A model generated the notes under the pieces. It was not told the origin of the DNA, searched no databases, and saw only the letters and a program-made list of their open reading frames with translations. The position numbers and the translations under genes are program-made. A DNA stretch of 64,000 nucleotides. Source: Nakamurella alba (GTDB taxonomy: Bacteria > Actinomycetota > Actinomycetes > Mycobacteriales > Nakamurellaceae). The stretch spans positions 310,001 through 374,000 of the forward strand of contig NZ_WLYK01000001.1 in the NCBI RefSeq assembly GCF_009707545.1, written 5' to 3'. This document shows positions 1,675 through 35,960 of this stretch, one piece after another (the stretch's first letter is position 1; each line of letters begins with the position of its first letter).

Positions 1675-2433
1675 ATGGACATCTCGACACGACTGGCCCG
1701 GGCACAGCGGCTCGGCAAATTGCATGCCACCCGGAAGCCGCTGGTGCTGCCGACGGTGTGGGACGTCTGGTCGGCCCGGACCGCCGTCGCCGCCGGGTTC
1801 GAGGCGTTGACGATCGGCAGCCATCCGCTGGCCGATTCGCGCGGCGCCGAGGATCACGAGGGGCAGACCTTCGCCGAGGTGATCTCCGCCGTCGGGCCGA
1901 TCATCGACGCGGTCGACGTGCCGGTCTCGGTGGACCTCGAGTCCGGCTACGGCCAGACGCCGGCCGACCTGATCGCCGGGTTGCTGGAGGCCGGTGGTGT
2001 CGGCCTGAATCTCGAGGACACCGTCCACTCGGAGGGCGGCCGGGTCCGGACCACCGAGGAACATGCCACCTACATCGCCGGGCTGCGCGCGGCGGCCGAC
2101 GCCGCCGGGGTGCCGGTCTGGATCAACGGGCGCACTGATCTCTTCCTGCACGCCGACGACAAGGACGCGGTGGCCGACGAGGCGATCGCCCGGTTGCAGG
2201 CACTCGTCGAGGCGGGCGCGAACAGCGTGTACCCGGTGCGGATCCAGGACGACGACGCACTGATCACCCGGGTGGTCGGCGCGCTGCCGGTACCGGTGAA
2301 CTGCACGGCGCACCCGGTGAAGCACGACCTGCCGCGGTTCACCCGGCTCGGCGTCGGCCGGATCACCTACGGGCCGTTGCTGCAGGGCGCGCTGACCGAG
2401 TCGATGACCGAGATGATCTCGCGCTGGCGCTGA
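1675..2433 (+). CDS. Isocitrate lyase/PEP mutase superfamily protein
   Basis: This 252-residue protein has the single-domain TIM-barrel of the ICL/PEPM superfamily, whose members form or cleave C-C or C-P bonds next to a carboxylate. Visible motifs are the strand with IGSHPLADSRGAED, the metal-binding VSVDLESGYG, and NLEDTVHS. The KKCGH-type loop of true isocitrate and methylisocitrate lyases is absent, so those exact activities are unlikely. The ATG at 1675 is followed at once by a coherent N-terminus. Its stop codon (2431-2433) is the first element of a 17-bp-spaced series of CTGA repeats running to about 2560. It converges on the CGNR gene. The substrate is unknown. Confidence 0.85.
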   Translation: MDISTRLARAQRLGKLHATRKPLVLPTVWDVWSARTAVAAGFEALTIGSHPLADSRGAEDHEGQTFAEVISAVGPIIDAVDVPVSVDLESGYGQTPADLIAGLLEAGGVGLNLEDTVHSEGGRVRTTEEHATYIAGLRAAADAAGVPVWINGRTDLFLHADDKDAVADEAIARLQALVEAGANSVYPVRIQDDDALITRVVGALPVPVNCTAHPVKHDLPRFTRLGVGRITYGPLLQGALTESMTEMISRWR

Positions 2434-2560
2434 CCGCTACGGAGTGCTGATCCCGGCAGACAGCTGACCCTTCGGACGCTGCTGACCTTTCGGACTGCTG
2501 ACGATCCGGACGCTGCTGACCCTCCGGACGCTGCTGACCCTTCGGACTGCTGACCCTGAC
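2431..2560. repeat. Tandem array of ~17-bp CTGA units beginning at the stop codon of the preceding gene
   Basis: TGA triplets in near-identical CTGA contexts occur at 2431 (the true stop), 2448, 2465, 2483, 2499, 2517, 2535 and 2551. The spacings are 17, 17, 18, 16, 18, 18 and 16 bp. The best conserved unit is close to CGGACGCTGCTGACCCTT. There are no unique spacers between units, so this is not CRISPR. The array fills the space between two convergent genes. Confidence 0.85.
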
Positions 2561-2595
2561 GGCCGCCCCGGGCGGCGACGGCGGCGTCCGCCGGG

Positions 2596-3258
2596 TCACG
2601 GGGTCGTGGTGCTCCGGTGCTTCCGGACCTTGAGCAGGTTCCCGCAGCGCTCCATCGAGCACCAGCGGCGGGTGCCCGGGCGGGAGGCGTCGACGAACAG
2701 GAAGGCGCAACCGTCGGCCTCGCACTCGCGGATCCGGTGCGCCAGCGGTCCGGTGAACAGGTCGACCGCGTCCCGGGCCAGCACCGACAACGCCTGCGGC
2801 ACCGTGGCTGTGGTCGCAGCGGCGGTCCCGTCGACGGCCATCCGGGGCGCCGGCGGGGGAGACGCGGCGTAGCGGTTGACGGTCTCCACGTCCACACCCG
2901 GCAGGTCGTCGACATCGTTGTCACGGGACAGGATGCGGGCCAGCCGCAGGATCGCGCCGCGCAGTTCGTGCGCGGCCGTGACCTCGTCGGTCGGTCGGGC
3001 GCTGGTGGTCAGGTCTGCGATGGTGGTGAGGTCGGCACTGGTGGTCGGGTCGTCGTTGTCTCTCGTGCCGGCCGGGGTGGCGGTGGTGATCCGCATCGGC
3101 CGCAGCACGTGTCCCAGCCACCGTTCAAGGCCCGCCGCGTCACCGATCAGTTCCGGTTCGATCCACTCGTCTGTGGCAGCGGTGTGCGCGAAGTCCAGGC
3201 TGACCCGGCCGGAGCGGAACCGCTTGGCCAGGGACGGGGCCATCCGCGGCGTGGTCAT
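2596..3258 (-). CDS. CGNR zinc-finger (ABATE-type) transcriptional regulator
   Basis: This is a putative DNA-binding regulator of the ABATE/CGNR family: an N-terminal ABATE-like domain (FRSGRVSLDFAHT near the start) and a C-terminal zinc finger with Cys pairs CEADGC and CSMERC. In the signature motif the usual CGNR reads CGNL, so the final Arg is replaced, although KVRKHR follows normally. Residues around 65-90 form an unusual Thr/Asp/Ala-rich repetitive insert. I chose the ATG at 3258; a GTG three codons upstream (3267) is possible. It is divergent from the MFS gene with an inverted repeat between them, which suggests it controls that exporter. Confidence 0.82.
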   Translation of the reverse strand: MTTPRMAPSLAKRFRSGRVSLDFAHTAATDEWIEPELIGDAAGLERWLGHVLRPMRITTATPAGTRDNDDPTTSADLTTIADLTTSARPTDEVTAAHELRGAILRLARILSRDNDVDDLPGVDVETVNRYAASPPPAPRMAVDGTAAATTATVPQALSVLARDAVDLFTGPLAHRIRECEADGCAFLFVDASRPGTRRWCSMERCGNLLKVRKHRSTTTP

Positions 3259-3290
3259 ACCGTCCACCGTACCGGACCGACACCGGTCTG

Positions 3291-3318
3291 ACCGGTTGAA
3301 GACACCGGTTCAACCAGT
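3291..3318. promoter_or_regulatory. Inverted repeat between CGNR regulator and MFS gene (candidate operator)
   Basis: ACCGGTTGAA (3291-3300) and TTCAACCAGT (3309-3318) form 10-bp arms with one mismatch and an 8-bp spacer, 13 bp before the MFS GTG start. The position between divergent genes and the symmetry suit a dimeric regulator site, most simply for the adjacent CGNR protein. Confidence 0.5.
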
Positions 3319-3330
3319 TACGGTGCCGGG

Positions 3331-4536
3331 GTGACCGCAACCACCGCACCCGCCGCCGGAGTGCGCACGAGGCCCGGCCCCGCTCTCTTCGCGATGGCGC
3401 TCGGCGGAGTGGCGCTGGGCACGGCCGAGTTCGCGACCATGGGTGTGCTGCCGGCCGTCGCCACCGATCTCGGCGTCTCGGAGCCGACCGCCGGCGTGCT
3501 GATCTCGGCCTATGCGGTCGGCGTGGTGATCGGGGCGCCGCTGCTCGCCGTGCTCGGCGCACGGATCCCGCGCCGCACCCTGTTGCTCGCCCTGGTCGGC
3601 CTCTTCGTGGTGGCGCACATCGGGTCGGCGCTCGCCCCGGGCTTCGGGTTCCTGGTCGGCACCCGCTTCGTGGCCGGACTGCCGCACGGTGCCTATCTCG
3701 GGGTGGCCGCGCTGGTCGCCGCCTCGCTCGTGCCGGAGGAACGCCGTGGCCGGGCGATCGCCTCGGTGATCCTGGGCCTGACCGTCGCCAACATCGCCGG
3801 AGTGCCGGTGTCGACCGCCATCGGGCAGTGGTGGGGTTGGCGGGCCACCTTCGCCGTCGTCGCCGTGCTCGGGTTGTTCACCCTGGTCGCGGTCCGCCTG
3901 CGGGTGCCCTGGCAGCCCGCCGGTCGGGTCGGGCGGGTGCTCGGCGAGCTGCATGCCCTGCGTCACGGTCAGCTCTGGGTCGCACTGCTGATCTGCGTGG
4001 TGGGGCTGGGCGGCATGTTCGCCGTCTTCACCTACATCTCCTCGACCCTGACCGAGGTGTCCGGGATCCCGCGGGCGTGGGTGCCGGCTGTGCTGGCGCT
4101 GTTCGGGCTCGGGATGACCGTCGGCACGGTGATCGGTGGACGGTTGGCCGACCTGTCGGTGGACCGCACCGTCCGCTTCGGCCTGTTCGCGATCGCCGCG
4201 GTGATGGCGGTCTTCACCCTCCTGGTGCACACCCCGGTCACCGCCGCGATCGGCGTGTTCCTGATCGGGATGACCTGCCTGACGCCGATGCCCGCGATCC
4301 AGGCGCGGCTGCTCGACGTCGCGCCCGACGCGCCGACACTCGCAGCGTCACTGCTGCACTCGGCGACGAACACCGCGAATGCGGTCGGCGCGTGGGCCGG
4401 CGGGGTGGTGCTGACCGCCGGTGCCGGATACGCCGCGATCGGTTGGGTCGGTGCTGCGCTCGCTCTGGCCGGCGCGATGATCGGGGTGCTGTGTGTCCGG
4501 AGCCGAACGACCGAGGAGAAAGCCGTGGTGGCATGA
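3331..4536 (+). CDS. MFS transporter, DHA1/AraJ-like exporter
   Basis: This 401-residue inner-membrane proton-coupled transporter has about 12 hydrophobic segments. The N-terminus (ALGGVALGTAEFATMGVLP) and the first loop (ISAYAVGVVIGAPLL) resemble the AraJ/Cml drug or sugar efflux group. The GTG at 3331 is chosen because it sits just after the candidate operator; longer frames are not available. It ends in an ATGA overlap with the epoxide hydrolase gene, so the two are translationally coupled. Pairing with a hydrolase and a divergent regulator suggests a detoxification or efflux unit. The substrate cannot be read from sequence. Confidence 0.85.
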   Translation: MTATTAPAAGVRTRPGPALFAMALGGVALGTAEFATMGVLPAVATDLGVSEPTAGVLISAYAVGVVIGAPLLAVLGARIPRRTLLLALVGLFVVAHIGSALAPGFGFLVGTRFVAGLPHGAYLGVAALVAASLVPEERRGRAIASVILGLTVANIAGVPVSTAIGQWWGWRATFAVVAVLGLFTLVAVRLRVPWQPAGRVGRVLGELHALRHGQLWVALLICVVGLGGMFAVFTYISSTLTEVSGIPRAWVPAVLALFGLGMTVGTVIGGRLADLSVDRTVRFGLFAIAAVMAVFTLLVHTPVTAAIGVFLIGMTCLTPMPAIQARLLDVAPDAPTLAASLLHSATNTANAVGAWAGGVVLTAGAGYAAIGWVGAALALAGAMIGVLCVRSRTTEEKAVVA

Positions 4537-5678
4537 CATCCCCCGATCCCATCAGCCCGATCCGCTCGTTCCGGCTCGACGTGCCGGAGTCCGAACTCGA
4601 GCACCTGCGGGATCGGCTGCGCCGGACCCGGTGGCCGGAGCCGGAAACGACGACGGGTAAGGACATCTGGGACCAGGGTCCGCCGCTGGAGACGGTGCGC
4701 GAGCTCGTCGAGTACTGGGCGACCGGGTACGACTGGCGGCGGCTCGAGTCCGAGCTGAACTCGCACGGACAGGCGATGACCGAGATCGACGGGCTCGACA
4801 TCCATCTGCTGCACGTCCGGTCCCCGCGCCCGGACGCCCGGCCGCTGGTGATCACCCACGGCTGGCCCAGCTCGGTGGTCGAGCCGCTCGAGATCATCGA
4901 CGCCCTGGTCGATCCCGCCGACCCCGATGCGCCGGCTTTCCACGTCGTCGCGCCGTCGCTGCCCGGATTCGGGTTCGGAGCGCGGCCCTCCGGGACCGGG
5001 TGGACGGTGGAACGAACGGCCGATGCCTGGGTCGAGTTGATGCGACGTCTCGGCTACGACCGGTTCCTCGCGGCGGGCGGCGACTGGGGCGGCCGGGTCA
5101 CCGCGCGGCTGGCCCACGCGCACCCGGACCACGTCATCGGCATGCACACGTTCACCCCCTACGTGAGCGAACCTGCCGGCGGTCCAGGCCCTCTCACCGA
5201 GCTCGAGTCGCAGTGGGTCGCCGACACCCGCTGGTTCCACACCTACGGCGGCGGGTACTCCCTGCAGCAGTCGACCCGTCCGCAGACCCTGGCCTACGCG
5301 CTCGTCGACTCCCCGCTCGCGCTGCTCACCTGGATCCTGGACAAGTTCCACCTGTGGACCGACCGGCGGTCACCGGTGTCCCGGGACCGCATCCTCGACA
5401 CCGTGATGCTGTACTGGCTCTCCGGGACCGGGGGCTCGGCGGTCCGGTTCTACTGGGAGAACTTCCCGCCCCGGGGCAACGACGAGCGGGTCGGCGTGCC
5501 GGCTTCGGTCACCGTGTTCCCGGCCGACATCGAGAAGTTCCCGCGGTTCTGGGTGGAGCAGCGGTTCCGGGATCTCCGCTCCTTCTCCGTCGCCGAGCGG
5601 GGTGGGCACTTCCCGATGCTGGAGGTCCCGGCCGGGTACGCCGGCGCCCTGCGCAGGTCGCTCGGGTCGATGACCTGA
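4533..5678 (+). CDS. Epoxide hydrolase (alpha/beta hydrolase, EH N-terminal domain)
   Basis: This 381-residue enzyme is predicted to open epoxides to diols in the cytoplasm. Residues from about 8-110 match the EH N-terminal domain (FRLDVPESELEHLRDRL, then WEP/DW segments). The alpha/beta core carries the oxyanion motif HGWPSS, nucleophile Asp in GGDWGG, the FPADIEKFP region near the acid residue, and the catalytic His in AERGGHFP. The ATG at 4533 overlaps the MFS stop by 4 bp, indicating one transcript. The P450 cassette 160 bp downstream could generate epoxides, but the palindrome between them marks a separate regulatory unit. Confidence 0.88.
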   Translation: MTSPDPISPIRSFRLDVPESELEHLRDRLRRTRWPEPETTTGKDIWDQGPPLETVRELVEYWATGYDWRRLESELNSHGQAMTEIDGLDIHLLHVRSPRPDARPLVITHGWPSSVVEPLEIIDALVDPADPDAPAFHVVAPSLPGFGFGARPSGTGWTVERTADAWVELMRRLGYDRFLAAGGDWGGRVTARLAHAHPDHVIGMHTFTPYVSEPAGGPGPLTELESQWVADTRWFHTYGGGYSLQQSTRPQTLAYALVDSPLALLTWILDKFHLWTDRRSPVSRDRILDTVMLYWLSGTGGSAVRFYWENFPPRGNDERVGVPASVTVFPADIEKFPRFWVEQRFRDLRSFSVAERGGHFPMLEVPAGYAGALRRSLGSMT

Positions 5679-5775
5679 CGACGGTCGGTCACCGACACCC
5701 CATTCAGAGTCGCGTGTATCTCGGGGCCGGGCGGCCGTAGTGCTGTCCTGCGAACAGCGGGAACAGTGCCAACCA

Positions 5776-5804
5776 TTGTCTACCAGACGGCCGTCTGATA
5801 ACTT
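5776..5804 (+). promoter_or_regulatory. Candidate promoter and TetR operator of the P450 cassette
   Basis: CAGACGGCCGTCTG (5784-5797) is a perfect 14-bp palindrome. Extended to 20 bp (5781-5800) it has only one mismatched pair. It lies between a possible -35 (TTGTCT, 5776-5781) and -10 (TAACTT, 5799-5804) with 17-bp spacing, about 35 bp before the P450 start. This is the expected geometry for repression by the TetR protein encoded at the end of the cassette. The promoter hexamers are inferred; the palindrome is directly visible. Confidence 0.65.
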
Positions 5805-5839
5805 CGCCGGCAGACCTCCGCCGCCGAAGGATGTGTTCG

Positions 5840-7081
5840 ATGACGACCTCCACGCTGCCGCCGACCGACCTGCTCGCGCCGGGCCCGACCGCCGACCCCT
5901 ACGACATCTACGCCAACCTGCGCCGGGACGACCCGGTGCACTGGAATCCGTTCCAGAAGGCCTGGTTGATCACCCGGTACCAGGACGTCTGCGAGGCCTA
6001 CCTGGATCCGCGGCTGTCCTCCGACCGGATCCGGCCGATGCTCGGCATGGTGGCGGGGGACCGGCAGGACGAGATGGGCCGGATGCTGGCGATCATGGCC
6101 GAGTGGATGGTGGTGACCGACGGTCCGGCGCACCACCGGCTGCGCAAGCTCGCCAACACCGCGTTCCGGCAGCAGCGGGTGGCGGCGATGGGGGAGTGGA
6201 TCGGCGAGATCGTCGACGGCCTCGTCGACCGGTTCGTCGCGAGCGGCTCCGAGGACTTCTATCAGGACATCGCCTTCCCGATGCCCGCGACGGTGATCGC
6301 CACCATGATGGGTGCGCCGGCGGAGGACGCGTTGCGGTTCCAGAAGTGGTCCGACGAACTGGCTCTCGTCGCGTTCGGGACCGGCGGTGCGGAGCGGGCC
6401 GACCGCTACCGGCGGGCGCTCGCCGGGATCACCGAGATGCAGTCCTACCTCTCCGATCTCATCGACAAGGCGCGGTCGGCGCCGGGGTCGGACATGATCG
6501 GTGTGCTGCTCACCTCGCAGGACGCCGAGGGGGACCGGCTCGACGACGACGAGCTGATCGCGCTATGCTCGCTGATCCTGTTCGCCGGGCACGAGACCAC
6601 CACGAACCTGTTGTGCAACGGCGTCGTGTCCTTGCTGCAGCACCCGGAGCAGCTCGAGAAGCTGCGCGCGGACCGTGGTCTCGTGCCGACCGCGGTGGAG
6701 GAGATGCTGCGGTTCGACGGCCCGATCAAGACCATCCAGCGCTGGGTGGTCGAGGACCACGAGCGGGACGGGCGGCAGCTGAAGGCCGGCCAGCGGGTGT
6801 TTCTGATGAACAGCGCGGCCAACCGGGACGGTGGCACCTTCGACCGGCCGGACGACTTCGACATCACCCGACCCACCCAGCCGCTGCACGTCGCTTTCGG
6901 ACGGGGTGTGCACTCGTGCCTGGGAGCCCAGCTGGCCCGGCTGGAGACCCGCACGGCGATCCCGATCATCCTGGACCGGTTGCCCGGTCTCCGGCTCGCC
7001 GGTCCGGTGTCGTACCGGTCGACCACGGCATCCCGAGCGGTGACATCCCTGCTGGTGCAGCACGATGCGGGGGTTCGGTGA
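5840..7081 (+). CDS. Cytochrome P450
   Basis: This 413-residue soluble bacterial P450 monooxygenase takes electrons from the ferredoxin encoded next. The I-helix oxygen-binding motif FAGHETTTN, the K-helix EEMLR (ExxR) and the haem-binding loop FGRGVHSCLGAQLA, with thiolate ligand Cys360, are all intact. I chose ATG 5840 over 5831 because GAAGGA at 5826-5831 is then correctly spaced as a ribosome-binding site. Its stop overlaps the ferredoxin GTG by 4 bp. The palindrome upstream suggests control by the cassette's TetR protein. The substrate and CYP subfamily are not predictable; an inducible xenobiotic or terpenoid oxidation is one inference. Confidence 0.93.
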   Translation: MTTSTLPPTDLLAPGPTADPYDIYANLRRDDPVHWNPFQKAWLITRYQDVCEAYLDPRLSSDRIRPMLGMVAGDRQDEMGRMLAIMAEWMVVTDGPAHHRLRKLANTAFRQQRVAAMGEWIGEIVDGLVDRFVASGSEDFYQDIAFPMPATVIATMMGAPAEDALRFQKWSDELALVAFGTGGAERADRYRRALAGITEMQSYLSDLIDKARSAPGSDMIGVLLTSQDAEGDRLDDDELIALCSLILFAGHETTTNLLCNGVVSLLQHPEQLEKLRADRGLVPTAVEEMLRFDGPIKTIQRWVVEDHERDGRQLKAGQRVFLMNSAANRDGGTFDRPDDFDITRPTQPLHVAFGRGVHSCLGAQLARLETRTAIPIILDRLPGLRLAGPVSYRSTTASRAVTSLLVQHDAGVR

Positions 7082-7407
7082 CCGTGCCGACGGTGGAGTT
7101 CGTCTCGGACGGCGGCACGGTCACAGCGGTGACGGCTGCGCCGGGGACGACCGCGATGCGGGCTGCGACCGGGGCCGGGGTGCAGGGCATCGTCGGCGAG
7201 TGCGGGGGCCAGATGATGTGCTCGACCTGCCATGTCTACGTGCAGCCGGACCGGCTCGAGGAGCTGCCGGAGATGGAGCCGGACGAGGACGAGATGCTGG
7301 ATCTCACCGCGGCTCCGCGCCGGCCGGAGAGCCGGTTGTCCTGCCAGATCGTGCTCGACGAACAGCTCGACGGGTTGCGACTGACGATGCCGTCGCACCA
7401 GGTGTGA
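7078..7407 (+). CDS. 2Fe-2S ferredoxin (putidaredoxin/adrenodoxin type)
   Basis: This 109-residue electron carrier links the downstream reductase to the P450. Cluster ligands follow the vertebrate/bacterial P450-ferredoxin spacing: GECGGQMMCSTC (C-x5-C-x2-C) and a fourth Cys in RLSCQI about 37 residues later. An acidic patch (EMEPDEDEMLD) matches the partner-docking region of this class. The GTG at 7078 overlaps the P450 stop by 4 bp; a second GTG at 7084 is also possible. Its stop overlaps the reductase GTG, so the three redox genes form one coupled translational unit. Confidence 0.93.
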   Translation: MTVPTVEFVSDGGTVTAVTAAPGTTAMRAATGAGVQGIVGECGGQMMCSTCHVYVQPDRLEELPEMEPDEDEMLDLTAAPRRPESRLSCQIVLDEQLDGLRLTMPSHQV

Positions 7408-8645: not shown

Positions 8646-8695
8646 GTGGGCCGCGGTATGCTCGCCGTCCGTCTGCAGCGAGCCAGGAGAGGAAC

Positions 8696-9331
8696 GTGAC
8701 CGGGGTGGCCGAGCCGCGACGCGCGCCGGCCCGCAGGGGTCGCGCCGATCGGAAGCCGCGGGACGAGCGGTGGAACGACCTGGTCGACGTCGCCACCCAG
8801 GCCTTCCACGACAACGGCTACGACGCCACCAGTCTGCAGCAGATCGCCGATGAGGTCGGCATGCTCAAGGGCAGCCTGTACTACTACTTCCAGTCCAAGG
8901 AGGACCTCCTCTTCGAGGTGATTTCCCGGGTGCACCTGGACGGGTTGGTGAACCTGCAGCGGCTGGTCGCCGGGCCGGGGACGGTCGCGCAGATCCTGGA
9001 GGCCGCGGTGATCGGCCACATGCAGTTCATGTCGGGGCATCTCACGGGGACATCGGTGTTCCTGCGTGACCTGTCCGCCCTGCCGATGGCGCGCCAGGAG
9101 GAGATCACCACCAGGGACGGCGGCTACCAGGGGGTGTTCCGCGACCTGCTGGCCCGGGGCGTGGCGAGCGGCGAGTTCCGCGCGGACCTCGACGTCAAGG
9201 TCTCGGCGTTGTCCCTGCTGGGCAGCCTGAACTGGTTCCACCGCTGGTACCGGGCCGACGGTGCCCTCAGCCCCGAGCAGATCGGCCGTGAGGTGGCCGG
9301 GATCTTCGTCCGGGGTTTCGTTGCCGATTGA
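8696..9331 (+). CDS. TetR family transcriptional regulator
   Basis: This 211-residue regulator has a short basic N-terminal tail (RRAPARRGRADRK) and the TetR helix-turn-helix: AFHDNGYDATSLQQIADEVG, then KGSLYYYFQSKEDLL. The C-terminal ligand domain is helical and hydrophobic. The GTG at 8696 has an AGGAGAGG ribosome-binding site just upstream. It is the last gene of the P450 cassette, 50 bp after the reductase, and most simply binds the palindrome at 5784-5797, giving feedback control with induction by the P450 substrate. That assignment is inference from position. Confidence 0.9.
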   Translation: MTGVAEPRRAPARRGRADRKPRDERWNDLVDVATQAFHDNGYDATSLQQIADEVGMLKGSLYYYFQSKEDLLFEVISRVHLDGLVNLQRLVAGPGTVAQILEAAVIGHMQFMSGHLTGTSVFLRDLSALPMARQEEITTRDGGYQGVFRDLLARGVASGEFRADLDVKVSALSLLGSLNWFHRWYRADGALSPEQIGREVAGIFVRGFVAD

Positions 9332-9363
9332 AGCAGTCGCCGATCGACGCGGTGGTGTCGCGG

Positions 9364-12505: not shown

Positions 12506-12553
12506 CACCGCCACCGCCGAATCCTGAACCCGCCCCACAGCCGCACACGGTGC

Positions 12554-21884: not shown

Positions 21885-21902
21885 GACAGGCTCCTTCGGC
21901 TG

Positions 21903-21970
21903 TGCGGTGTGGATCGTCGGGGTGCGGTGTGGATCGTCGGGGTGCGGGGTGCGGGGTGCGGGGTGCGGGG
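21903..21970. repeat. Compound tandem repeat (2 x 20 bp + 4 x 7 bp)
   Basis: A 20-bp unit beginning TGCGGTGTGGATC occurs twice in perfect tandem (21903-21942), followed directly by four TGCGGGG heptamers (21943-21970). The heptamer is a shortened version of the start of the long unit. It lies just upstream of the isomerase ribosome-binding site. Confidence 0.85.
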
Positions 21971-22086
21971 TGCGTTCGTCGGGAGGACGGGTCGTCGAGC
22001 AGTGCAAGTTGTCGAGCAGTTCAGGTCGTCGGTGAGGGCGGGCCTCGACGGCAGCCCATGGCTGGGCAGGCCGCCGATGATCGTTC

Positions 22087-25945: not shown

Positions 25946-26932
25946 ATGAGCACCGCCATCGCCCCCGTCGACGCGGGCCCCCGCAAGTCCTCCGACCTGC
26001 GGGGCCGCCTCGAGCAATTGCTCGCCTTCGCCGGCCTGATCGTGATCGTGGTGTTCTTCGCGATCGCGAACGAGAACTTCCGGACGTTCAGCAACATCAC
26101 CGCGATCCTGTTCTCCACCGTGGTCATCGGGATCCTGGCCCTGGGCACCACGTTCGTCATCATCACCGGCGGCATCGACCTGTCGATCGGTACCGGCATG
26201 ACGCTGTGCGCGGTCATGTCCGGCGTCTTCCTGATCAACTGGAACCTGCCACTCGGCCTCGGTCTGCTGTTGACGGTGCTGTTCGGCGGGCTGATCGGCC
26301 TGGTCAACGGGTTCAACGTGGCGATCCTCGGGCTGCCGCCGTTCATCGCCACCCTGGCCATGATGCTGGTGGCCCAGGGACTGGCGCTGGTGCTGTCGAA
26401 CAGTGCCCCGATCTACTTCAGCGTCCTGCCCGCGTTCAGCGAGATCTCCACCGGGGAGATCATCCCGAAGGTGCCGAACGCGGTCCTGGTGCTGCTGGTA
26501 CTGGCGGTCCTGGCGGCGATCCTGCTGGGGCGCACCCTGTTCGGCCGCTACACGTTCTCCATCGGCAGCAACGAGGAGGCGACCGAGCTCTCCGGCATCA
26601 ACACCCGCAAGTGGAAGCTCATCATCTACACGGTCGCCGGCCTCTTCACCGGCATCGCCGGCATCATGATCTCCGCCAGGCTCGGTTCGGCCCAGCCCGC
26701 CACCGGGCAGGGCTACGAGCTGCAGGCCATCGCCGCGGTCGTCATCGGGGGGACCTCGCTGACCGGCGGCAAGGGATCCATCGTGGGCACGGTGATCGGC
26801 GCGCTGATCATCTCCGTGCTCAACAACGGCCTGCGGATCATGTCGATCCCGCAGGAGTGGCAGAACGTGATCCTCGGACTGGTCATCCTGGGTGCCGTCT
26901 ACGCCGACATGGCCCGCAAACGCACCACCTGA
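25946..26932 (+). CDS. Sugar ABC transporter permease (RbsC type)
   Basis: This 328-residue inner-membrane permease has about eight to ten hydrophobic helices. Family motifs include LGTTFVIITGGIDLSIGTGM near the first third, GLVNGFNVAILGLPPFIATLA, and the cytoplasmic ATPase-coupling loop GSNEEATELSGINTRK. An AGGA site precedes ATG 25946. Its stop codon is followed by a long CTGA-repeat array that separates it from the binding-protein gene, an unusual feature inside a transport operon. Confidence 0.93.
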   Translation: MSTAIAPVDAGPRKSSDLRGRLEQLLAFAGLIVIVVFFAIANENFRTFSNITAILFSTVVIGILALGTTFVIITGGIDLSIGTGMTLCAVMSGVFLINWNLPLGLGLLLTVLFGGLIGLVNGFNVAILGLPPFIATLAMMLVAQGLALVLSNSAPIYFSVLPAFSEISTGEIIPKVPNAVLVLLVLAVLAAILLGRTLFGRYTFSIGSNEEATELSGINTRKWKLIIYTVAGLFTGIAGIMISARLGSAQPATGQGYELQAIAAVVIGGTSLTGGKGSIVGTVIGALIISVLNNGLRIMSIPQEWQNVILGLVILGAVYADMARKRTT

Positions 26933-27098
26933 GAAACCGGACCACCACGAGCACCTGACGCACACGGCACCTGAAGTCCGCAGTATCTGACGCACGCACT
27001 ACCTGACGCGCTGCAACACCTGAGGCAGCACAGCACCTGACGCACCGCACCGCCTGACGCACCGCACCACCTGAAGCACCGCACCACCTGAAGCACCG
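26930..27098 (+). repeat. Tandem array of 16-17-bp CTGA units following the permease stop codon
   Basis: After the permease stop at 26930, further TGA triplets in A/C-CCTGA-type contexts occur at 26956, 26972, 26988, 27004, 27021, 27038, 27055, 27072 and 27089. The spacings after the first are 16, 16, 16, 17, 17, 17, 17 and 17 bp. The last units (GCACCACCTGAAGCACC) match the true gene end, which reads CGCACCACCTGA. The array lies between two genes of one operon and ends about 45 bp before the next start. Confidence 0.88.
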
Positions 27099-27144
27099 CC
27101 CACGGTCGCCGTCCGGCGCACCGCAACGAGAGGACACACCCACC

Positions 27145-28284: not shown

Positions 28285-28319
28285 CGCTCGCAGGAACCGC
28301 GGTACTGTCGAGAACCGCT

Positions 28320-29818: not shown

Positions 29819-29954
29819 TCGCGAGGACCCGCTGGACAACGGCGAACACCGGCCTGGAGAACATCCGGGTCGGTGCCGAGCGGATCGGCGGCGCGCGGCT
29901 GTTCGTTCTCCATGGTGGGTGGCTGGTCACAGGCGCTGGTCGCCACGGAGTCGT

Positions 29955-32900
29955 TCAGCGGGAATCGGCCATCGACAGATCCTCGAGCTCGGCGGCCAGA
30001 GACCGGCAGCGGGCGAGCGACACCGGGCCACCGCCGTTCTCGGCCAGCACGGTCGCCACCGCGAGCGGTTCGGCGGCCGCCTCGGGATCCCCGCGCAGCA
30101 GGTGCAGGCGCGCGACGGCCAATCCGATCGGCCCGAACACGCCCACATGGCCCATGGTGGCGATGCAGTGCTGCAGCGGGACCAGTCGGTCGAGCAGGGC
30201 GTTGACGTGATGGTGCAGACCGAGATCGGCCGTGAGGTGTGCCATCAGCGTCCACCGGCCGTGCGAGGTCCAGACCAGCGGACCGTCGGCGGCCAGCTCC
30301 TCGCCGATCACCCGGTCGGCGGCGGCGGCCTCACCGCGCGCGGCGTGCAAGGCGGCGAGAGCCCAGGTGGCGACGTCCTTGTCGACATCCGGCGGGCCCA
30401 GTTCGCCGATCCGGCCGGAGTCCCAGAGCAGCGCGAGCAGTGCGTGGTAGTACACCCCGCTGAAGTACAGCTCGGTCTGCTGGTGCATCTCGTAGGTCTG
30501 GTCGTAGATCGCCCGGGTGGTCACGAAATCGCCGTGCCACTGGGCCAGTTCGCCCTCCATCCAGCGCAGCTGCACCCGGCCGACCGGCAACCGCAGGAGA
30601 TCGGCCGCCTCGGCTCCGCGACGTCGGTGCTCCTCCGCGGCGGTGACGTCGCCCAGGGTCATCGTGGCCATGGCGAGCAGGCTGTGCCGGAGCACGTCGT
30701 CGAGCCGCTGCTGCCGGTGCGGCACCTCCGCCAGTCGTTCCAGCAGCCGGACGGACTCCTCGGCGCGGGCGGCCACCCCGGAGAAGGTGAGCGCCCGGCC
30801 GAGCAGCGCGTCGGCGAGCACCTCGGGATCGCCCAGCTGCTCGGCGATCTCGAGCGCGTGGGCACTGAGTCGGTCCGGCACCGCCCCGTCCGGGTCGTAA
30901 CAGCTCCCGACGGCGAGGGCGGCGAGCACCTGGACGTGGGCGGCCGGGTCGGTGCTGACCATCCGCTCCACGCCGGCCAGTCGGGTGAGCAGCGGCGCCG
31001 GGTCCGCGCCGTAGGTCGTCCACGGCCAGGCGCCGGCGGTGCGCAGCAGCGTCGACGCGAGACGGCCGACGGACCCCGTTCGTCCCTGGCGCGCGGCGTC
31101 CAGCAGCGCCGCGTCGACCACGTCCAGCACGGTCTGCCCGCGCCCGGCCCGGGCCAGGGCGTCGACCCGGGCGATCACCAGGTCGTCCCGTTCGGTATCG
31201 GTCAGCGCGTCCCGGCCGGACAGCGAGAGTTGGTCCGCCACCTGCAGTGCGATCTCCCACCAGTCGGCCGCGGCCTCGGACAGCCAGCGCCGGTCGGCGT
31301 CCACCGCCGCCGCGCGGCAGGCATCGAGAGCGGTGGCTGGGTCGGCCAACGGCAGCGCGGCGACCAGGTGCGCCGCCCGACGCACCAGCCGCTCGGTCGG
31401 TCCGCCCGGACCCAGGCTGTCGGCGACCCGGGCGTGCAGCCGCTGCCGGCGCACGGCGGACATCCCGGCCATCACCTCGTCGCGCAGCAGCGCATGGGCG
31501 AAGGTGTACCTGCCGTCGGCGGCGGCGACGATGATCCGTTCGTCGGAGGCCTCGTCGAGCAGGTCGGCCAGTTCCTCCGGGTCGATCCGGGTCACGGAGC
31601 GGAGCAGTGCAGGATCCATCGGGTCGCCGATGATCGCAGCGGTCCGCAGCACCTGGAGCACCGCCGGGTCCAGCGCCGACAACCGCCGCCCCAGTACCGA
31701 TCTGATGGACGGGGGCAGGTCGCCGGCGGCCCGCTCCTCCTCGGGGAGCCGGGCGTACTCGGCGACGAAGAAGGGATTGCCACCGGTGCGGGCGGTGAGC
31801 GCGGCGGCCTCCCCGGGGTCGACGGCGCGGCCGCCGACCAGCTCCGACAACCGGCCCACCTCCGCCACCGACAGCGGTGGCACGGTGACCTGACGGGTAC
31901 CGGCCCGGCGCACCGCAGATTCGAGCAGCCGCTGCAGGTCCGGTGCCCGCAGCCCGTCGCGGGCGGTGAGCAGGACCGCGAGCCGGTTCGCCCCGGGCGC
32001 GGCGGCCAGGTGGGTCAGGAAGCGCAAGGTCGCCGGGTCCGCCCACTGCACGTCGTCGACGAGCAGCAGCAACCCGCCCGCGTCGGCCGACACCTCGGCC
32101 AACAGGCCCAGCACCCGCTCGTAGATCGCGAACCGGGCCGCGTCGGCGTCGCTGCCCTCGGGCGGGGTGAGCACCGCGTCGTCGTCGGATCCCAACCCGC
32201 GCAGCACGCGGCGGACCGGCCACCACGGCGGGACGCCGTCGTCGTCCGGACAGGTCGTCCGGACCGCCCGGCCGCCGGTGGACTCCCAGCGGCGCACGAT
32301 CTCCTCGGCCAGCCGGGTCTTGCCGATCCCGGCCGGGCCGCCGAGCAGCAGCCAGCGATCCCCGCCGGTCCGTACCTCGGCGAAGAGCCCGGCCGCGATG
32401 TCCAACTCCCGCCCCCGGCCGACGAGACCCTCGGCCGGGACGGTGATGTCGGGCGTGTGCGGGGCCGGTATCGCGGGTGCGGTCGGGGTCGCGGCCGGCT
32501 GCGCAGCGGGACCCGGCCAGGCCATCAGCGACGGGTCCTGCCGCAGGATCGCGCCCTGCAGCTCCCGCAGGTCCGGTCCGGTCTCCAGACCCAGTTCCTC
32601 GTCGAGCCGCCGGGTGTGGGCGCGGTGGACGTCCAGCGCCTCACCCGATCGACCCGCCCGGTGCAGCGCGAGAACGTACAACCAGCAGGCCTTGTCGCGC
32701 AAGGGCTGCAGCTCGTGCAGCAACCGGGCCGGGTGCAGCGACTCTGTCTCCCGACCGGATCCGAGCAGTCCGGTCACCAGGAGTTCGAGGGCCTCGGCCC
32801 GCCGCTCGTCGACACCGGCGGCCGGGATGCGGACCCACTCCTCGTCCTGCCAGTCGGCGAGAAGGGTTCCGCGCCAACGGTGCAGGGCGGCCTCCGCGGC

Positions 32901-33275
32901 CTGCACCGTCAGCCCCCAGTCGCGGTGGGCGGCCGCGGTCCGGGCGCGCTCCACGTCCGCGGTGAACAGCGACAGGTCGATGGACTCCGCCGGAACGGAG
33001 AGCGAGTACCCCGGTGCCCGTCGGACGATCGGGGAGGTCGCGGTGCTGCTGTCCCGCAGCAGTCGTCGCAGGTTCGAGATGTGCGCCTGCAGACTGCCTG
33101 TCACGCTCGGTGGCGCATCCTCGCCCCACACCGCGTCGATGATCGAGTCCGTCGGCACGACCCGCCCGGCGGACAGCAGCAGCACGGCGAGCACGGCCCG
33201 CTGCTTCGGCCCGCCCAGGTCCACGGCATGGTCGTCGCGGACCACCTCCAGTGGCCCGAGTACGCGGTACTGCAC
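29955..33275 (-). CDS. AfsR/SARP-type regulator with BTAD and AAA ATPase domains
   Basis: This 1106-residue regulator has an N-terminal OmpR/SARP DNA-binding domain (residues 1-95: MQYRVLGPLEVV, PKQRAVLAVLLL, HISNLRRLLRD), a bacterial transcriptional activation domain (96-245, ending LDEELGLETGPDL), then a STAND/AAA ATPase core with Walker A GGPAGIGKTRLAEE (Lys319) and acidic LLLLVDDVQWADP. The long C-terminal half is helical, TPR-like. Such proteins activate secondary-metabolite or specialised pathways. Start is GTG 33275. The only neighbour on the same strand is the FAD oxidase gene upstream, a plausible target. The length is normal for large SARPs. Confidence 0.92.
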   Translation of the reverse strand: MQYRVLGPLEVVRDDHAVDLGGPKQRAVLAVLLLSAGRVVPTDSIIDAVWGEDAPPSVTGSLQAHISNLRRLLRDSSTATSPIVRRAPGYSLSVPAESIDLSLFTADVERARTAAAHRDWGLTVQAAEAALHRWRGTLLADWQDEEWVRIPAAGVDERRAEALELLVTGLLGSGRETESLHPARLLHELQPLRDKACWLYVLALHRAGRSGEALDVHRAHTRRLDEELGLETGPDLRELQGAILRQDPSLMAWPGPAAQPAATPTAPAIPAPHTPDITVPAEGLVGRGRELDIAAGLFAEVRTGGDRWLLLGGPAGIGKTRLAEEIVRRWESTGGRAVRTTCPDDDGVPPWWPVRRVLRGLGSDDDAVLTPPEGSDADAARFAIYERVLGLLAEVSADAGGLLLLVDDVQWADPATLRFLTHLAAAPGANRLAVLLTARDGLRAPDLQRLLESAVRRAGTRQVTVPPLSVAEVGRLSELVGGRAVDPGEAAALTARTGGNPFFVAEYARLPEEERAAGDLPPSIRSVLGRRLSALDPAVLQVLRTAAIIGDPMDPALLRSVTRIDPEELADLLDEASDERIIVAAADGRYTFAHALLRDEVMAGMSAVRRQRLHARVADSLGPGGPTERLVRRAAHLVAALPLADPATALDACRAAAVDADRRWLSEAAADWWEIALQVADQLSLSGRDALTDTERDDLVIARVDALARAGRGQTVLDVVDAALLDAARQGRTGSVGRLASTLLRTAGAWPWTTYGADPAPLLTRLAGVERMVSTDPAAHVQVLAALAVGSCYDPDGAVPDRLSAHALEIAEQLGDPEVLADALLGRALTFSGVAARAEESVRLLERLAEVPHRQQRLDDVLRHSLLAMATMTLGDVTAAEEHRRRGAEAADLLRLPVGRVQLRWMEGELAQWHGDFVTTRAIYDQTYEMHQQTELYFSGVYYHALLALLWDSGRIGELGPPDVDKDVATWALAALHAARGEAAAADRVIGEELAADGPLVWTSHGRWTLMAHLTADLGLHHHVNALLDRLVPLQHCIATMGHVGVFGPIGLAVARLHLLRGDPEAAAEPLAVATVLAENGGGPVSLARCRSLAAELEDLSMADSR

Positions 33276-33380
33276 GATCCCCTCCGGTGTGCTCGACGTG
33301 CGGTGTTCGGTGGTGTCCGGCGGACCGCGGGTCTGCGCTGGAAGCCGGTGCCGGATGTCCCGGTCGCACCGTATCCCTCC

Positions 33381-33440
33381 AGGTCCCGCCAGGTCCCGCC
33401 AGGTCCCGCCAGGTCCCGCCAGGTCCGGACAGGTGCCGGC
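33381..33440. repeat. 10-bp tandem repeat upstream of the SARP gene
   Basis: AGGTCCCGCC occurs four times exactly (33381-33420), followed by two degenerate copies (33421-33440). It lies 106 bp upstream of the regulator's GTG start, so it might contain regulator-binding direct repeats; SARP sites are typically short direct repeats with about 11-bp spacing. Confidence 0.7.
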
Positions 33441-33514
33441 CTGACGGTCGGGTCCCTGGATTCAGGGAAGGCCTGCCGACCCGCGGCGGCCGGTGCCCGC
33501 CCGGGATTGCAGAC

Positions 33515-33747
33515 CTTAGGAGTCGGGCAGGACTGCCGGATCGGAGCGGTAGGTCCGGCTCCCGTCGTGGTGGGCCAACCTCAGGAGTCGGGGCAGGCCT
33601 GCCGGATCGCGGTGATCCGCCGGCTCCCGCGGTGGTGGGCCGACCTCAGGAGTCGGGGCAGGCCTGCCGGATCGGAGCGGTGGGGCCGGCTCCCACTGTG
33701 CGGTGTGCGACCCTCAGGTGTCGAGGCAGGCCTGCCGGATCGGAGCC
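33515..33747 (-). repeat. 65-68-bp tandem repeat copying the 3' end of the FAD oxidase gene
   Basis: Units start at 33515, 33580, 33645 and 33713 (plus coordinates). The last is the real gene end. Read on the minus strand, the copy at 33645 would encode APIRQACPDS then stop, nearly the gene's own APIRQACLDT then stop. The remaining part of each unit, with a CGGGAGCCGGC-type block, is also shared. Confidence 0.85.
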
Positions 33748-35213
33748 GCATCGGCCAGCACCCCGGCCGGGTCGTAGGTCGCGGCAAGTGTGGCCAGCCG
33801 GCGCAGCGTCTCGGGGGAGTAGGTGCGGCGCACCTCGGCCGGTGCCGTCGAGGGCGCGAAGTTCGGCAGCCGACCGCACGATCGGGGCGCCAGAGCGGCG
33901 ATCAGTCCGTCGGCGTGATCGGCGACCGCCTGCATCAGTGGTGGCACCCCCAGCCCGATCAACGACACCAGGTACCGGGCGTCCCGGTGCGAGAAGGCGT
34001 CCGGGTGGGCCGGTGTCCGGGCGAGAGCGCCACCCAGGTGCCGGATCTCGACGAGCACCTGCGGGCAGTCGGCCTCCGGCCCGGCGGACCGGAGCACGGT
34101 CTCGACGTCGTCGGCGGTCAACTCGCGCAGGACCGAGGAGGCCTCGTGTCCCGGCATCGGGTCCACCGGGTCGGCGTGGATCAGTTCGAGCGCACCGTAG
34201 GGGAGCACGTCCATCCCGCCGAGCAGAACAGGTGCCAGGTCGAGCATCGGTGCGATGACCCGCCGCCCCTCGTCCGGATCGCCGAGCCACCCGAAGCGCA
34301 CCGCGACGGTGAGCCGGCCGGCCAGTTCGGCCGGGACGCCCGGCATCGGTGGGAGCCGGACCAGGGCGACGGAACTGGTGCCCTGCTCCGGCAGTCCGGC
34401 GGTCCAGTCGCGCCAGGCGTGCAGCACGCGTGCCGCGTGCGAGCCGTCCAGGTGGATCGCACCGCCGAAGAAGGTGCTGACCCTGGGCAACCGGAGCTCC
34501 ACGGCGACGACGATGCCCGCGACGCCCTTGCCGCCGCGCAAGGCCCAGAACAGGGCCGGGTTCTCGACCGTCGAGGCCCGGCGCATCTCGCCGTCACCGG
34601 TCACCACGTCGAAGGCGAGGACGTGGTCGGACCCGAGGCCGAGGGTGCGGACGAACGGCCCGATCCCACCACCGGTGAGGAATCCGACGACGCCCACGTG
34701 CGGGGAGGACCCGGCGGGGGCCGCAAGCCCGAGCGGTGAGGCGGCGGCCATCACCTCGTTCCACCGCACGCCGGCTCCCACCCGGGCGGTGCCGTCCGGG
34801 CGCACCTCCAGCTCGTCGAGCCGGCCGGTGTGGATCAGCAGGGTGGGTGCGCTCCCCGGGACGGCGCCGTGTCCGGTGAGGCGGACCGCGACGGACAGGG
34901 CATGCACGCCGGCGAAGCGGACGGCCGCGGCGATGTCCGCCGGACCGTCGACCACGGCCACTGCGGCCGCATCGGCCGGCACCGCCAGATTCCAGGGGGT
35001 GGCCATCGCCGCGAAATCGGGGTCGCCGGGCATCAGCAGGTCCCCGTCGAGCATCGATCGGAGCTCGCCGAACGGGATCGGGCCCGACGTGGGTACGACG
35101 TCGTTCCGGGACGCGGGGGTCGGTGCGATCCCGACCGGCGCGGCCGGCTCGGTGGATCGGGGACGGCCGGGTCCGGGCAGTTCGGGTGAGGCGTGGGTGG
35201 GGAAGGTGGTCAC
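33714..35213 (-). CDS. FAD-linked oxidase (BBE/berberine-bridge-like, PCMH-type FAD domain)
   Basis: This 499-residue flavoprotein oxidase/dehydrogenase has an N-terminal FAD domain with IAAAVRFAGVHALSVAVRLTGHG (flavin-binding and attachment region; the usual His is seen in TGHG), VGAGVRWNEVMAAA and GGGIGPFVRTLGLGSDHVLA. A substrate domain and a C-terminal FAD contact follow (APSTAPAEVRRTYSPETLRRLATLAATYDP, a BBE-like tail with Asp-Pro but no NxN motif). GTG 35213 has a GGAG site upstream. Its 3' end is copied in the downstream tandem repeat. It is divergent from the 43-codon gene and near the SARP gene, so a specialised-metabolism role is possible. Confidence 0.87.
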   Translation of the reverse strand: MTTFPTHASPELPGPGRPRSTEPAAPVGIAPTPASRNDVVPTSGPIPFGELRSMLDGDLLMPGDPDFAAMATPWNLAVPADAAAVAVVDGPADIAAAVRFAGVHALSVAVRLTGHGAVPGSAPTLLIHTGRLDELEVRPDGTARVGAGVRWNEVMAAASPLGLAAPAGSSPHVGVVGFLTGGGIGPFVRTLGLGSDHVLAFDVVTGDGEMRRASTVENPALFWALRGGKGVAGIVVAVELRLPRVSTFFGGAIHLDGSHAARVLHAWRDWTAGLPEQGTSSVALVRLPPMPGVPAELAGRLTVAVRFGWLGDPDEGRRVIAPMLDLAPVLLGGMDVLPYGALELIHADPVDPMPGHEASSVLRELTADDVETVLRSAGPEADCPQVLVEIRHLGGALARTPAHPDAFSHRDARYLVSLIGLGVPPLMQAVADHADGLIAALAPRSCGRLPNFAPSTAPAEVRRTYSPETLRRLATLAATYDPAGVLADAAPIRQACLDT

Positions 35214-35608
35214 GAGGTGCTCCGGGTGGGTCGGTGGCGGGCCCGGCGGCTCCCGTCGGACCGACGCCGCTGGGCGTCCTGCAGAGCATCCGGCTCGTCC
35301 CTTGGGCCGTACTTGGAAGCAGCTTGTGCGCGAGCGGATACGCAGCGTGCGGCCGAACGGAGTTTGCTTCACTCGTTCGGAGGAAGCTGGCGAGGAATGT
35401 CGGATTCGGCGTGATGCCATCGGCAACCGGCCGTCACCATTGCAGTACGCCGGAGAACCGGACAGGCCACACCGGCCCGACGAGCTCCTCGTACCGGCCG
35501 GACATCACGGTCGACCACCCGGTCGATCCACCGGCCGCACGACCACCGGCACGTACGACCACCGGCATCCCGCCGACCACCAGCACTCCGCCACGAGAGG
35601 ACACGACG
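35214..35608. other. 395-bp divergent control region
   Basis: No gene is seen. It separates the FAD oxidase (minus) from the 43-codon gene (plus). An inverted repeat, CCGAACG-g-AGT at 35353-35363 and ACTCGTTCGG at 35371-35380, has one bulged base and a 7-nt loop; it could be an operator or RNA hairpin. Two CGACCACCGGCA-type direct repeats lie at about 35548-35571. Confidence 0.45.
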
Positions 35609-35740
35609 ATGGCGACCATCCTCGAGCAGACCCCCGCCCGCACCGGACTCGGCCGCGCCCTGGCGAAGATCGTCCAGAACCGCCGCGATCGCCAGGAAGC
35701 CGCAATCCGCAGCGCGGTCCAGGCGATCCGCGTCCGCTGA
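35609..35740 (+). CDS. Small basic 43-residue protein
   Basis: The frame MATILEQTPARTGLGRALAK and onward encodes 43 residues with nine Arg and one Lys, and a likely amphipathic helix (RALAKIVQNRRDRQEAAIRSAVQAI). A GAGAGG site lies about 9 bases before the ATG and the stop is followed by a tandem array. I recognise no family. It is divergent from the FAD oxidase gene with a large control region between. It could be a regulatory peptide or small DNA/RNA-binding protein, but this is speculation. Confidence 0.5.
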   Translation: MATILEQTPARTGLGRALAKIVQNRRDRQEAAIRSAVQAIRVR

Positions 35741-35769
35741 TTCCCTCGTGCCGACCATTCTCGGCTCAC

Positions 35770-35960
35770 CCCGGCCGGGGTCCCAGCAGAGCCTCCGGTG
35801 CCGCTGACCTCCCGGCCTTGCCTGGCCGGGGACCCCAGCCGGCCCTCCGGTGCCGCTGACCTTCGGGCCCTTCCCGGCCGGGATGCCGGCAGACCCTCCG
35901 TGCCGCTGTCCTTTCGGCCCTCCGTGCCGTTGGCCTTCCGGCCGGCCGGGGTGCGGCCGG
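35770..35960. repeat. Imperfect ~50-bp tandem repeat after the small gene
   Basis: Three to four degenerate units share CCGGCCGGG...CCTCCGGTGCCGCTGACCTTCGG. The GCTGA elements at about 35803 and 35855 resemble the end of the small gene (CGTCCGCTGATTCCCTCG). The core CTCCGG-n4-GCTGACC-TTCGG is also the core of the 2431-2560 array (CTCCGG-n5-GCTGACCC-TTCGG). Confidence 0.7.

Follow-up and report, generated by a model that had tools for sequence, protein, structure and literature searches.

Four tandem arrays in a 64-kb window of the Nakamurella alba chromosome (the window being that whole 64-kb stretch) are probably locus-specific intergenic minisatellites produced by near-neutral local tandem duplication. 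In the part of the genome that was sampled, non-coding DNA commonly contains tandem duplications of ~10–130 bp. These extend up to and across stop codons, are scarcer near start codons and, where they cross a stop, hold sense-strand copies of the gene end. The initial annotation had seen in the four arrays a possible new class derived from gene ends. Arrays built from gene ends do exist, but they do not clearly form a separate class, as duplication coverage does not spike at stops and simulated uniform duplications reproduce the observed positions.

The four arrays and their gene ends

The arrays and the open reading frames preceding them are as follows.

1675..2433, plus strand: gene 5' of array A1, PEP phosphomutase family (PF13714)
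2429..2557, plus strand: array A1, TRF periods 18 and 34, best score 127
25946..26932, plus strand: ABC permease gene 5' of array A2 (PF02653)
26950..27103, plus strand: array A2, TRF periods 17, 34 and 51, best score 150
33374..33438, minus strand: second array near A3, 10-bp period, 6.5 copies (TRF)
33513..33746, minus strand: array A3, TRF period 65, 3.6 copies, score 285
33714..35213, minus strand: FAD-binding oxidase gene (PF01565) copied at its end in A3, start codon uncertain
35609..35740, plus strand: 43-aa ORF 5' of array A4, doubtful gene, coding score 10.2 (threshold 8)
35770..35943, plus strand: array A4, TRF period 52, score 192

All four arrays reported earlier are present (TRF scores 127–285), with periods as first described, about 16–18 bp in two and longer ones in the other two, and each contains TGA, sense-oriented relative to the ORF that precedes it. 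Their edges lie −5 (A1), 17 (A2), −33 (A3) and 29 nt (A4) from the stop. The units of A1 measure 16–18 bp (GCTGACCCTTCGGAC..), and the array starts around the stop of the PEP-mutase-family gene. A2 consists of ~17-bp units, CACCTGACGCACCGCAC, and sits inside an ABC operon, in the gap between the permease gene and the gene for the substrate-binding protein; it is very C-rich. A3 is made of degenerate 65-bp units that include a copy of the final ~33 nt of the oxidase gene with its stop, and shares its intergenic region with the 10-bp array, which is unrelated to it and not gene-end-like. The 52-bp units of A4 contain GCCGCTGACC and have only a putative gene-end origin. The preceding 43-aa ORF scores low, has no Pfam match and no relative in the 16 other genus genomes (E 0.01), which leaves it uncertain that a gene ends there.

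The units had further been said to resemble the upstream gene end, and we ranked each such resemblance among those obtained with every gene end called in positions 1–1200000 of contig C1, 1047 in total. For A3 the own gene end ranks best of the 1047 (p 0.001): its last 24 nt are found again with 2 mismatches, and the anchored suffix test gives a match of length 33 and score 27. The antisense rank of A3 also reaches p 0.029 because its gene end contains a palindrome, a 12-bp one that belongs to the coding end and recurs in the units. Since the C-terminal RQACL of the oxidase is retained in the orthologue of G008, the nearest relative found, the copying went from the gene end to A3. A2 ranks at p 0.0105, with CGCACCACCTGA matched exactly. 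For A1 (p 0.11) and A4 (p 0.15), many other gene ends among the 1047 match equally well. Thus, while the repetitiveness of all four arrays is plain, resemblance to the own gene end, stop included, exceeds chance in two of them, A2 and A3.

Gene-end copies in the sampled genome

We sampled 1.7 of the 6.05 Mb of the genome as a discovery and a replicate part, calling genes with a home-made caller, whose predictions also define the gene starts, and scoring gene-end copies by the anchored suffix test with a permutation expectation. A first duplication score, which counted repeats lying wholly within intergenic DNA, was dropped when permutations nearly matched the data. In a scan of gene ends with permutation controls, of the sort proposed in the initial annotation, copies were found at 14 of 732 3' ends and at 2 of 976 5' ends (Fisher p 0.0004), where permutation predicted 0.7 and 0.85. 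The 3' copies divide into 8/510 in the discovery part (expected 0.45) and 6/222 in the replicate (expected 0.25), and the 5' copies into 2/660 and 0/316. These counts support the existence, in the 1.7 Mb, of arrays made of gene ends that are commoner at 3' than at 5' ends. Array density decreases from convergent to tandem to divergent regions, in discovery and replicate alike.

The resemblance is confined to the sense strand and declines with distance from the stop. Among arrays overlapping a stop, 17 of 29 are similar to their own gene end at p ≤ 0.05 (antisense, 4/29); this falls to 3 of 25 for arrays 1–40 nt past the stop (KS p 0.001) and to 2 of 45, with a uniform distribution, beyond 40 nt. 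Stop-overlapping arrays resemble their own gene end in 6 of 14 cases in other members of the genus (antisense, 2) and likewise in 6 of 14 in other families (antisense, 1). The comparison loci were drawn from the best 80 named oxidase-family loci, none of them from this genus. We used 62, with masked N read as A: 42 from Mycobacterium sensu lato, 7 from Williamsia, 9 from Rhodococcus/Prescottella and 4 from Frankiaceae. The other 18 were excluded before counting, 15 belonging to other genera and three (L108, L129, L131) being repeat records of included species.

Occurrence in relatives and likeness to known systems

The units of the four arrays appear to be single-locus and lineage-specific, judging from searches (E 1e-5) in which at most 40 candidates were scored per genome and each species was represented by one genome, G008 being itself a different species. 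Within these limits A1, A3 and A4 each occur at a single place in their own genome and have no match in the 16 other genus genomes, and the sole match of A2 besides itself is one of 65 bp and 78% on a different contig of G016. A2 is missing after the orthologous permease of G008 (89% amino acid identity). The oxidase gene of G008 is followed by its own array of 22–24 bp units, unrelated to A3 and built on that genome's own gene end. Among 107 units from positions 1–1600000 of contig C1, six pairs are similar, and A1–A4 take part in none of them. Rfam gave no match at gathering scores.

With head-to-tail repeats of ~10–100 bp at one locus (TRF), a locus-specific unit and a presence that varies among relatives, the arrays share these properties with intergenic minisatellites or VNTRs. 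MIRU elements (Supply 1997, cited in PMC2734929) are similar in being intergenic units of 40–100 bp associated with gene junctions; they are one set of repeats at 41 locations, whereas the arrays here have no common unit and A1–A4 were each found at a single place rather than as one family over many loci (among the 40 or fewer candidates scored). MIRUs are modelled as inserting at stop/start sites. REP/BIME-type elements are dispersed palindromic units; A1–A4 are not dispersed, although the units of A3 do hold a palindrome. The tandem repeats of Borgs (PMC9879509) are also locus-specific, recent and quickly changing, but their units are perfect, A-rich and carried by archaeal extrachromosomal elements, whereas those of Nakamurella alba are degenerate, GC-rich and chromosomal. 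VNTR3239 of Mycobacterium tuberculosis (PMC2734929) is likewise an array between two genes, rnc and fpg1, which occurs in a single lineage and is replaced by a short gap in relatives; its copy number varies, but it begins 40 bp past the rnc stop and is not described there as gene-end-derived. The TAACTGA direct repeats of Beggiatoaceae (PMC4679880) contain stops, and some overlap the stop of the upstream gene; they are a single fixed heptamer used genome-wide, mostly facing downstream start codons. Our literature search, with most subscription journals outside its reach, found no description of gene-end-derived arrays in actinomycetes.

Origin of the arrays

Under the reading we prefer, short sequence matches would give rise to the duplications through slippage or misaligned repair. 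A duplication spanning a stop would be tolerated because the gene-proximal copy retains the whole gene and its stop, and the downstream copies may then drift ahead of a terminator-like hairpin. The gene-end resemblance would then be mainly a by-product of the positions at which duplications are tolerated, and units bearing TGA would require no function. In 35 exact two-copy non-coding duplications, junction homology averages 3.6 nt, a value that partial third copies may inflate, against ~0.8 expected by chance. This is compatible with the slippage put forward in the initial annotation, but none of the results links slippage to the ends of transcription or replication. Of the coding periods, 150 of 177 are divisible by three, versus 31 of 86 intergenic ones. 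A hairpin (stem ≥ 8) is present in 17 of 50 flanks with a nearby array; the strongest one lies past the array in 14, within it in 3 and never before it. The median distance from stop to hairpin is 91 nt with an array and 38 nt without (135/572 flanks), and 40 nt once the array length is subtracted. The arrays occupy the interval from stop to hairpin and lengthen it by their own size.

An end-linked mutational process, in which slippage or misrepair at the end of transcription (or translation) turns gene ends into mild hotspots of duplication, is in our view unlikely, though it is the strongest of the rivals. Over 12 groups, 64 of 141 array edges fall no more than 20 nt from a stop, against 48.9 expected under uniform placement (p 0.0004, ~1.3-fold). 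The discovery part contributes 23/42 (16.4 expected, p 0.004), the replicate 6/22 (4.6, p 0.26) and ten other groups 35/77 (27.9, p 0.02); the replicate and these ten groups together, which are independent of the discovery part, give 41/99 versus 32.5 (p 0.013). A null that avoids hairpins raises the overall expectation to 51.4 (p 0.0016; p 0.049 without the discovery part). Nine of the ten other groups exceed expectation, none individually at p < 0.05, but G017 falls below it (4/10 vs 5.6), and unmodelled constraint farther downstream could also yield such an excess. Coverage declines away from the stop in G002 (9.9, 9.3, 7.4 and 4.1%; 51 flanks) and runs at 16.7, 25.8, 20.8 and 18.6% in Frankiaceae (33 flanks) before falling to 2.8% at 180 nt. 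The G000 profile (flanking regions ≥ 100 nt; 296 3' and 468 5' flanks), by contrast, has no spike at stops: duplications cover 0.2–2.3% of positions over the final 120 nt of a gene, 6.6% over the 20 nt directly past the stop and 6.5–10.8% at 20–300 nt, compared with 1.0% in the 20 nt nearest to starts and 2.4–6.3% farther 5'. Simulated uniform duplications overlap the stop, lie 1–40 nt past it or lie beyond 40 nt in shares of 0.27, 0.25 and 0.48, as do 29, 25 and 45 of the 99 observed, and there is no gene-strand bias (33:20 vs 432:262). Stops are thus weakly supported as special among intergenic positions, the comparison the initial annotation had asked for. A marginally fainter chance attaches to gene ends being a true mild hotspot in some actinomycetes (Nakamurella, Frankia), where an end-linked process would repeatedly copy the last codons, the stop and the 3' flank into a reservoir of spare gene ends. 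If so, these fast-changing, sense-oriented spare ends could become new C-termini or 3' untranslated regions upon stop loss.

The functional readings offered earlier fare worse than a hotspot. That the arrays bind RNA or protein past genes, whether for Rho loading, for RNA stability or as regulator sites, is very improbable. They do lie ahead of hairpins, in probably transcribed DNA, and some, such as A2, are rich in C; but few units are common to several arrays, they are not conserved in the relatives searched, and the C-over-G skew of Rho-utilisation-like sites is absent on average (sense-strand mean 0.060 for n = 99 and 0.034 for n = 1029; p 0.27). Slightly more improbable still is selection for extra stops in every frame as backup termination. 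Arrays with TGA outnumber those with TCA by 36:4 within 40 nt of stops and by 12:11 farther out (203 arrays, 12 groups pooled), but such a bias is expected wherever the stop itself gets duplicated. The frames of TGA show no preference (42:45:51), the periods of TGA arrays modulo 3 (0, 1, 2) are distributed 8:11:17, and the first in-frame stop is reached no sooner than at ends that lack an array (p 0.52), contrary to the proposed multi-frame selection. Of the 25 arrays lying 1–40 nt past stops, 12 carry TGA against 1 with TCA, more than neutral simulation yields (62:54 of 350), a surplus for which drifted gene-end copies account in part only; over all intergenic DNA the asymmetry is weak in tandem regions (505:413, p 0.003), convergent ones giving 80:85. 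Least credible of all is insertion at stop codons of a mobile repeat dispersed in the manner of MIRU or REP elements. Arrays elsewhere in the genome do contain dispersed families, one of 125 bp with at least 31 matches (among the 40 of 89 candidates scored) and one of 97 bp with 5, but A1–A4 were each found at one place in their own genome (E 1e-5, at most 40 candidates scored), and two of them are built from local gene-end sequence.

If the arrays are minisatellites of near-neutral origin, those that contain stops past genes need no function, because stop-crossing duplications are harmless and automatically carry a sense-oriented gene end. The intergenic load of tandem duplications varies strongly among the sampled actinomycetes, from 0.15 arrays per kb of intergenic DNA in the 42 Mycobacterium-type loci through ~0.7 in the genome studied here to 1.6 in the four Frankiaceae loci.

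Four arrays and the genes that precede them

The initial annotation had described four tandem arrays beginning near stop codons, with stop-containing units resembling the end of the upstream gene, and had raised the possibility that they form a new class. The genome of Nakamurella alba comprises 6.05 Mb in 29 contigs, with a G+C content of about 71% (measured on 1.2 Mb), and all four arrays were recovered by TRF at the following window coordinates.

A1, 2429-2557, plus strand: tandem array preceded by a PEP-mutase-family enzyme gene
A2, 26950-27103, plus strand: tandem array preceded by an ABC permease gene
A3, 33513-33746, minus strand: tandem array preceded by a FAD-binding oxidase gene
A4, 35770-35943, plus strand: tandem array preceded by a 43-amino-acid ORF without Pfam hit, whose status as a gene is doubtful

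The last 24 nt of each gene were locally aligned to the following DNA and the result was ranked among the 1047 called gene ends of C1:1-1200000 (contig C1). A2 (p 0.0105) and A3 (p 0.001) are therefore built from their own gene end beyond the level of other gene ends, and the claimed resemblance holds for these two, not for A1 (p 0.11) and A4 (p 0.15). The C-terminal RQACL of the oxidase, as read from the sequences, is retained in the orthologue of the relative G008 (60% identity). The direction of copying is therefore clear in this case, with the coding end as the older element and the A3 copies downstream as derived.

A degenerate array of 16-18 bp (CCACCGGCACGCACGA) lies directly upstream of the 43-amino-acid ORF (window 35508-35592), so that arrays flank it on both sides. 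Two other intergenic arrays of the window have no tie to a gene end, one within a divergent region at 43696-43840 (2.1 copies of 71 bp) and one at 21902-21983 (4 copies of 20 bp, with 5.3 copies of CGGGGTG).

Gene-end copies and their stop codons

Genes were predicted with a caller written for this analysis (89.6% coding in C1:1-1200000, the 1.2 Mb discovery set); C1:1200001-1600000 and C5:1-100000 served as replicate, with identical tests and thresholds. Intergenic arrays with a TRF score of at least 50 numbered 86 and 34, respectively. Their density per kb of intergenic DNA was 1.12 in convergent, 0.75 in tandem and 0.42 in divergent regions of the discovery set (1.39, 0.63 and 0.23 in the replicate). 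Divergent regions held 21 of the 120 arrays vs 32% of intergenic DNA (p 0.0004), and 2 of the 41 scoring at least 100 (p 3e-5).

Copies of gene ends were sought by aligning the stop-anchored suffix of each gene to at most 250 nt of the DNA that follows it and to swapped regions (20 permutations in discovery), with mirrored 5' ends as control, a control that could be blurred since gene starts are the caller's own predictions. At a score of at least 10, copies were found at 8/510 3' ends in discovery (permutation mean 0.45, maximum 2) and 6/222 in the replicate (mean 0.25, maximum 1), compared with 2/660 (mean 0.40, maximum 1) and 0/316 (mean 0.45, maximum 2) 5' ends. The enrichment of 3' over 5' ends that the initial annotation had named as a control was thus borne out (pooled 14/732 vs 2/976, p 0.0004), and gene-end copying is real in this genome, at about 2% of gene ends. 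At the same score the other groups gave small counts, 0-2 per group at 3' ends (9/1004 in total) and 0-1 at 5' ends (4/1161).

Across 203 arrays from 12 groups, TGA-rich arrays (the stop in the sense of the upstream gene) outnumbered TCA-rich ones 36:4 within 40 nt of stops and 12:11 farther away. Selection for stop codons in several frames had been suggested for such units; TGA frames were evenly used (42:45:51) and the first in-frame stop came no earlier (p 0.52), which speaks against it. We attribute the excess instead to copying of the gene end, because similarity to the own end is confined to the sense strand and decays with distance: it reached p 0.05 in 17/29 stop-overlapping arrays (antisense 4/29) and in 3/25 arrays 1-40 nt past the stop (KS p 0.001), and ranks were uniform at 41-100 nt and beyond. 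The similarity of the stop-overlapping class recurs in other genus members (6/14) and other families (6/14); that of the 1-40 nt class does not (0/11 and 1/19). The 1-40 nt class of N. alba also has a TGA:TCA ratio of 12:1 among 25 arrays, above the 62:54 of 350 in a neutral simulation, which counts against the neutral model; drifted old gene-end copies explain only part of this surplus.

Periods were divisible by three in 150/177 coding and 31/86 intergenic arrays, a contrast that makes one process with different filters likely. Mean junction homology was 3.6 nt in 35 exact two-copy non-coding duplications vs about 0.8 by chance, a value that partial third copies may inflate, and 2.5 in 58 coding ones; gene-strand bias was absent (33:20 vs 432:262, C1:1-1600000). 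Slippage between short matching stretches would be the natural generator of such duplications.

Probable tolerance and a weak preference at gene ends

Tandem duplications cover 0.2-2.3% of the last 120 nt of genes in N. alba, 6.6% of the first 20 nt past the stop and then 6.5-10.8% up to 300 nt; upstream of starts the values are 1.0%, then 2.4-6.3%. Coverage peaks near the stop and then declines in G002, another member of the genus (51 flanks), and in Frankiaceae (33 flanks). Random duplications set uniformly across array-free 3' flanks of N. alba gave shares of 0.27, 0.25 and 0.48 overlapping the stop, at 1-40 nt and beyond, matching the observed 29, 25 and 45 of 99 arrays. We also re-placed each array within its own region, keeping 60 nt beside starts free, and counted those up to 20 nt from the stop: discovery gave 23/42 vs 16.4 expected (p 0.004), the replicate 6/22 vs 4.6 (p 0.26), the ten other groups together 35/77 vs 27.9 (p 0.02) and the whole set 64/141 vs 48.9 (p 0.0004). 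With placements on hairpins outside the array barred, the overall expectation was 51.4 (p 0.0016), and 41/99 vs 34.8 without discovery (p 0.049). The placement tests therefore indicate a weak, approximately 1.3-fold excess at stops over other intergenic positions across all groups, which is not significant in the replicate alone; the uniform simulation reproduces the observed shares. Either a mild hotspot at stops or constraint farther downstream could be its source.

A hairpin (stem of at least 8) occurs in 17/50 near-array flanks, the strongest lying beyond the array in 14, within it in 3 and before it in 0. Stop and hairpin lie a median of 91 nt apart where an array is present and 38 nt apart where none is; subtracting array length brings the former to 40 nt. 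Arrays are thus inserted into the space that separates the stop from the hairpin. Overall, the coverage, simulation, placement and hairpin results indicate that tolerance explains most of the pattern. The gene-end arrays are real, were found again in the replicate and are a by-product of tandem duplication; a weak preference for gene ends is left over.

Relatives and dispersed repeats

Each of A1-A4 occurs at a single place in N. alba and is without match in 16 other genomes of the genus at E 1e-5 (up to 40 candidates scored per genome), save one match to A2 (65 bp, 78%) on another contig of G016. Different sequences follow the permease homologues of G008, G015, G016, G005 and G014 (89, 87, 70, 67 and 61% identity); G015 shows a minor triplication of CCTGA at its stop. 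The G008 oxidase has its own 22-24 bp array (3.2-3.8 copies), beginning in its own, different gene end, and by eye no array of the A1 kind is seen after the PEP-mutase homologues of G014, G006 and G012, which are more distant (50-53%). Arrays therefore come and go among relatives, and gene-end arrays arise independently.

Arrays per kb of all intergenic DNA amount to 0.69 and 0.62 in N. alba, 0.40-0.73 in four other genus members, 0.64 in G017, 0.65 in G027, 0.80 in Williamsia, 1.57 in Frankiaceae, 0.15 in Mycobacterium sensu lato and 0.08 in Rhodococcus/Prescottella. The groups are limited in size (85-793 kb), and every named group samples loci around a single gene family (62/80 loci used). 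The Frankiaceae loci (L078, L079, L081, L082), with the top density of the groups compared, contain 19 arrays over 12 kb of intergenic sequence, including 7 within 1.7 kb of convergent DNA; at 20-40 nt past their stops, tandem duplications cover as much as 26% of positions (33 flanks).

VNTRs of M. tuberculosis (PMC2734929) and TAACTGA repeats (PMC4679880) are neighbours in kind of these arrays. At L053:15757-16003 (C1:715757-716003) stands a dispersed repeat, roughly 125 bp long and containing inverted segments (GGTCGCTCGTC / GACGAGCGACC). With 40 of 89 candidates scored, it has at least 31 matches in N. alba at E 1e-5, some in tandem, and none in the 16 other genus genomes (up to 40 candidates scored each). 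The family appears to be REP- or MITE-like and specific to the species. A second, local family with a 97-bp unit (L063:18613-18849, that is C1:918613-918849; C1:906425-906563; C1:922189-922251) has 5 matches, all inside 16 kb of C1. The arrays at C1:1351377 and C1:1484027 have GC-rich units of roughly 72 bp that resemble each other and may represent a third dispersed family.
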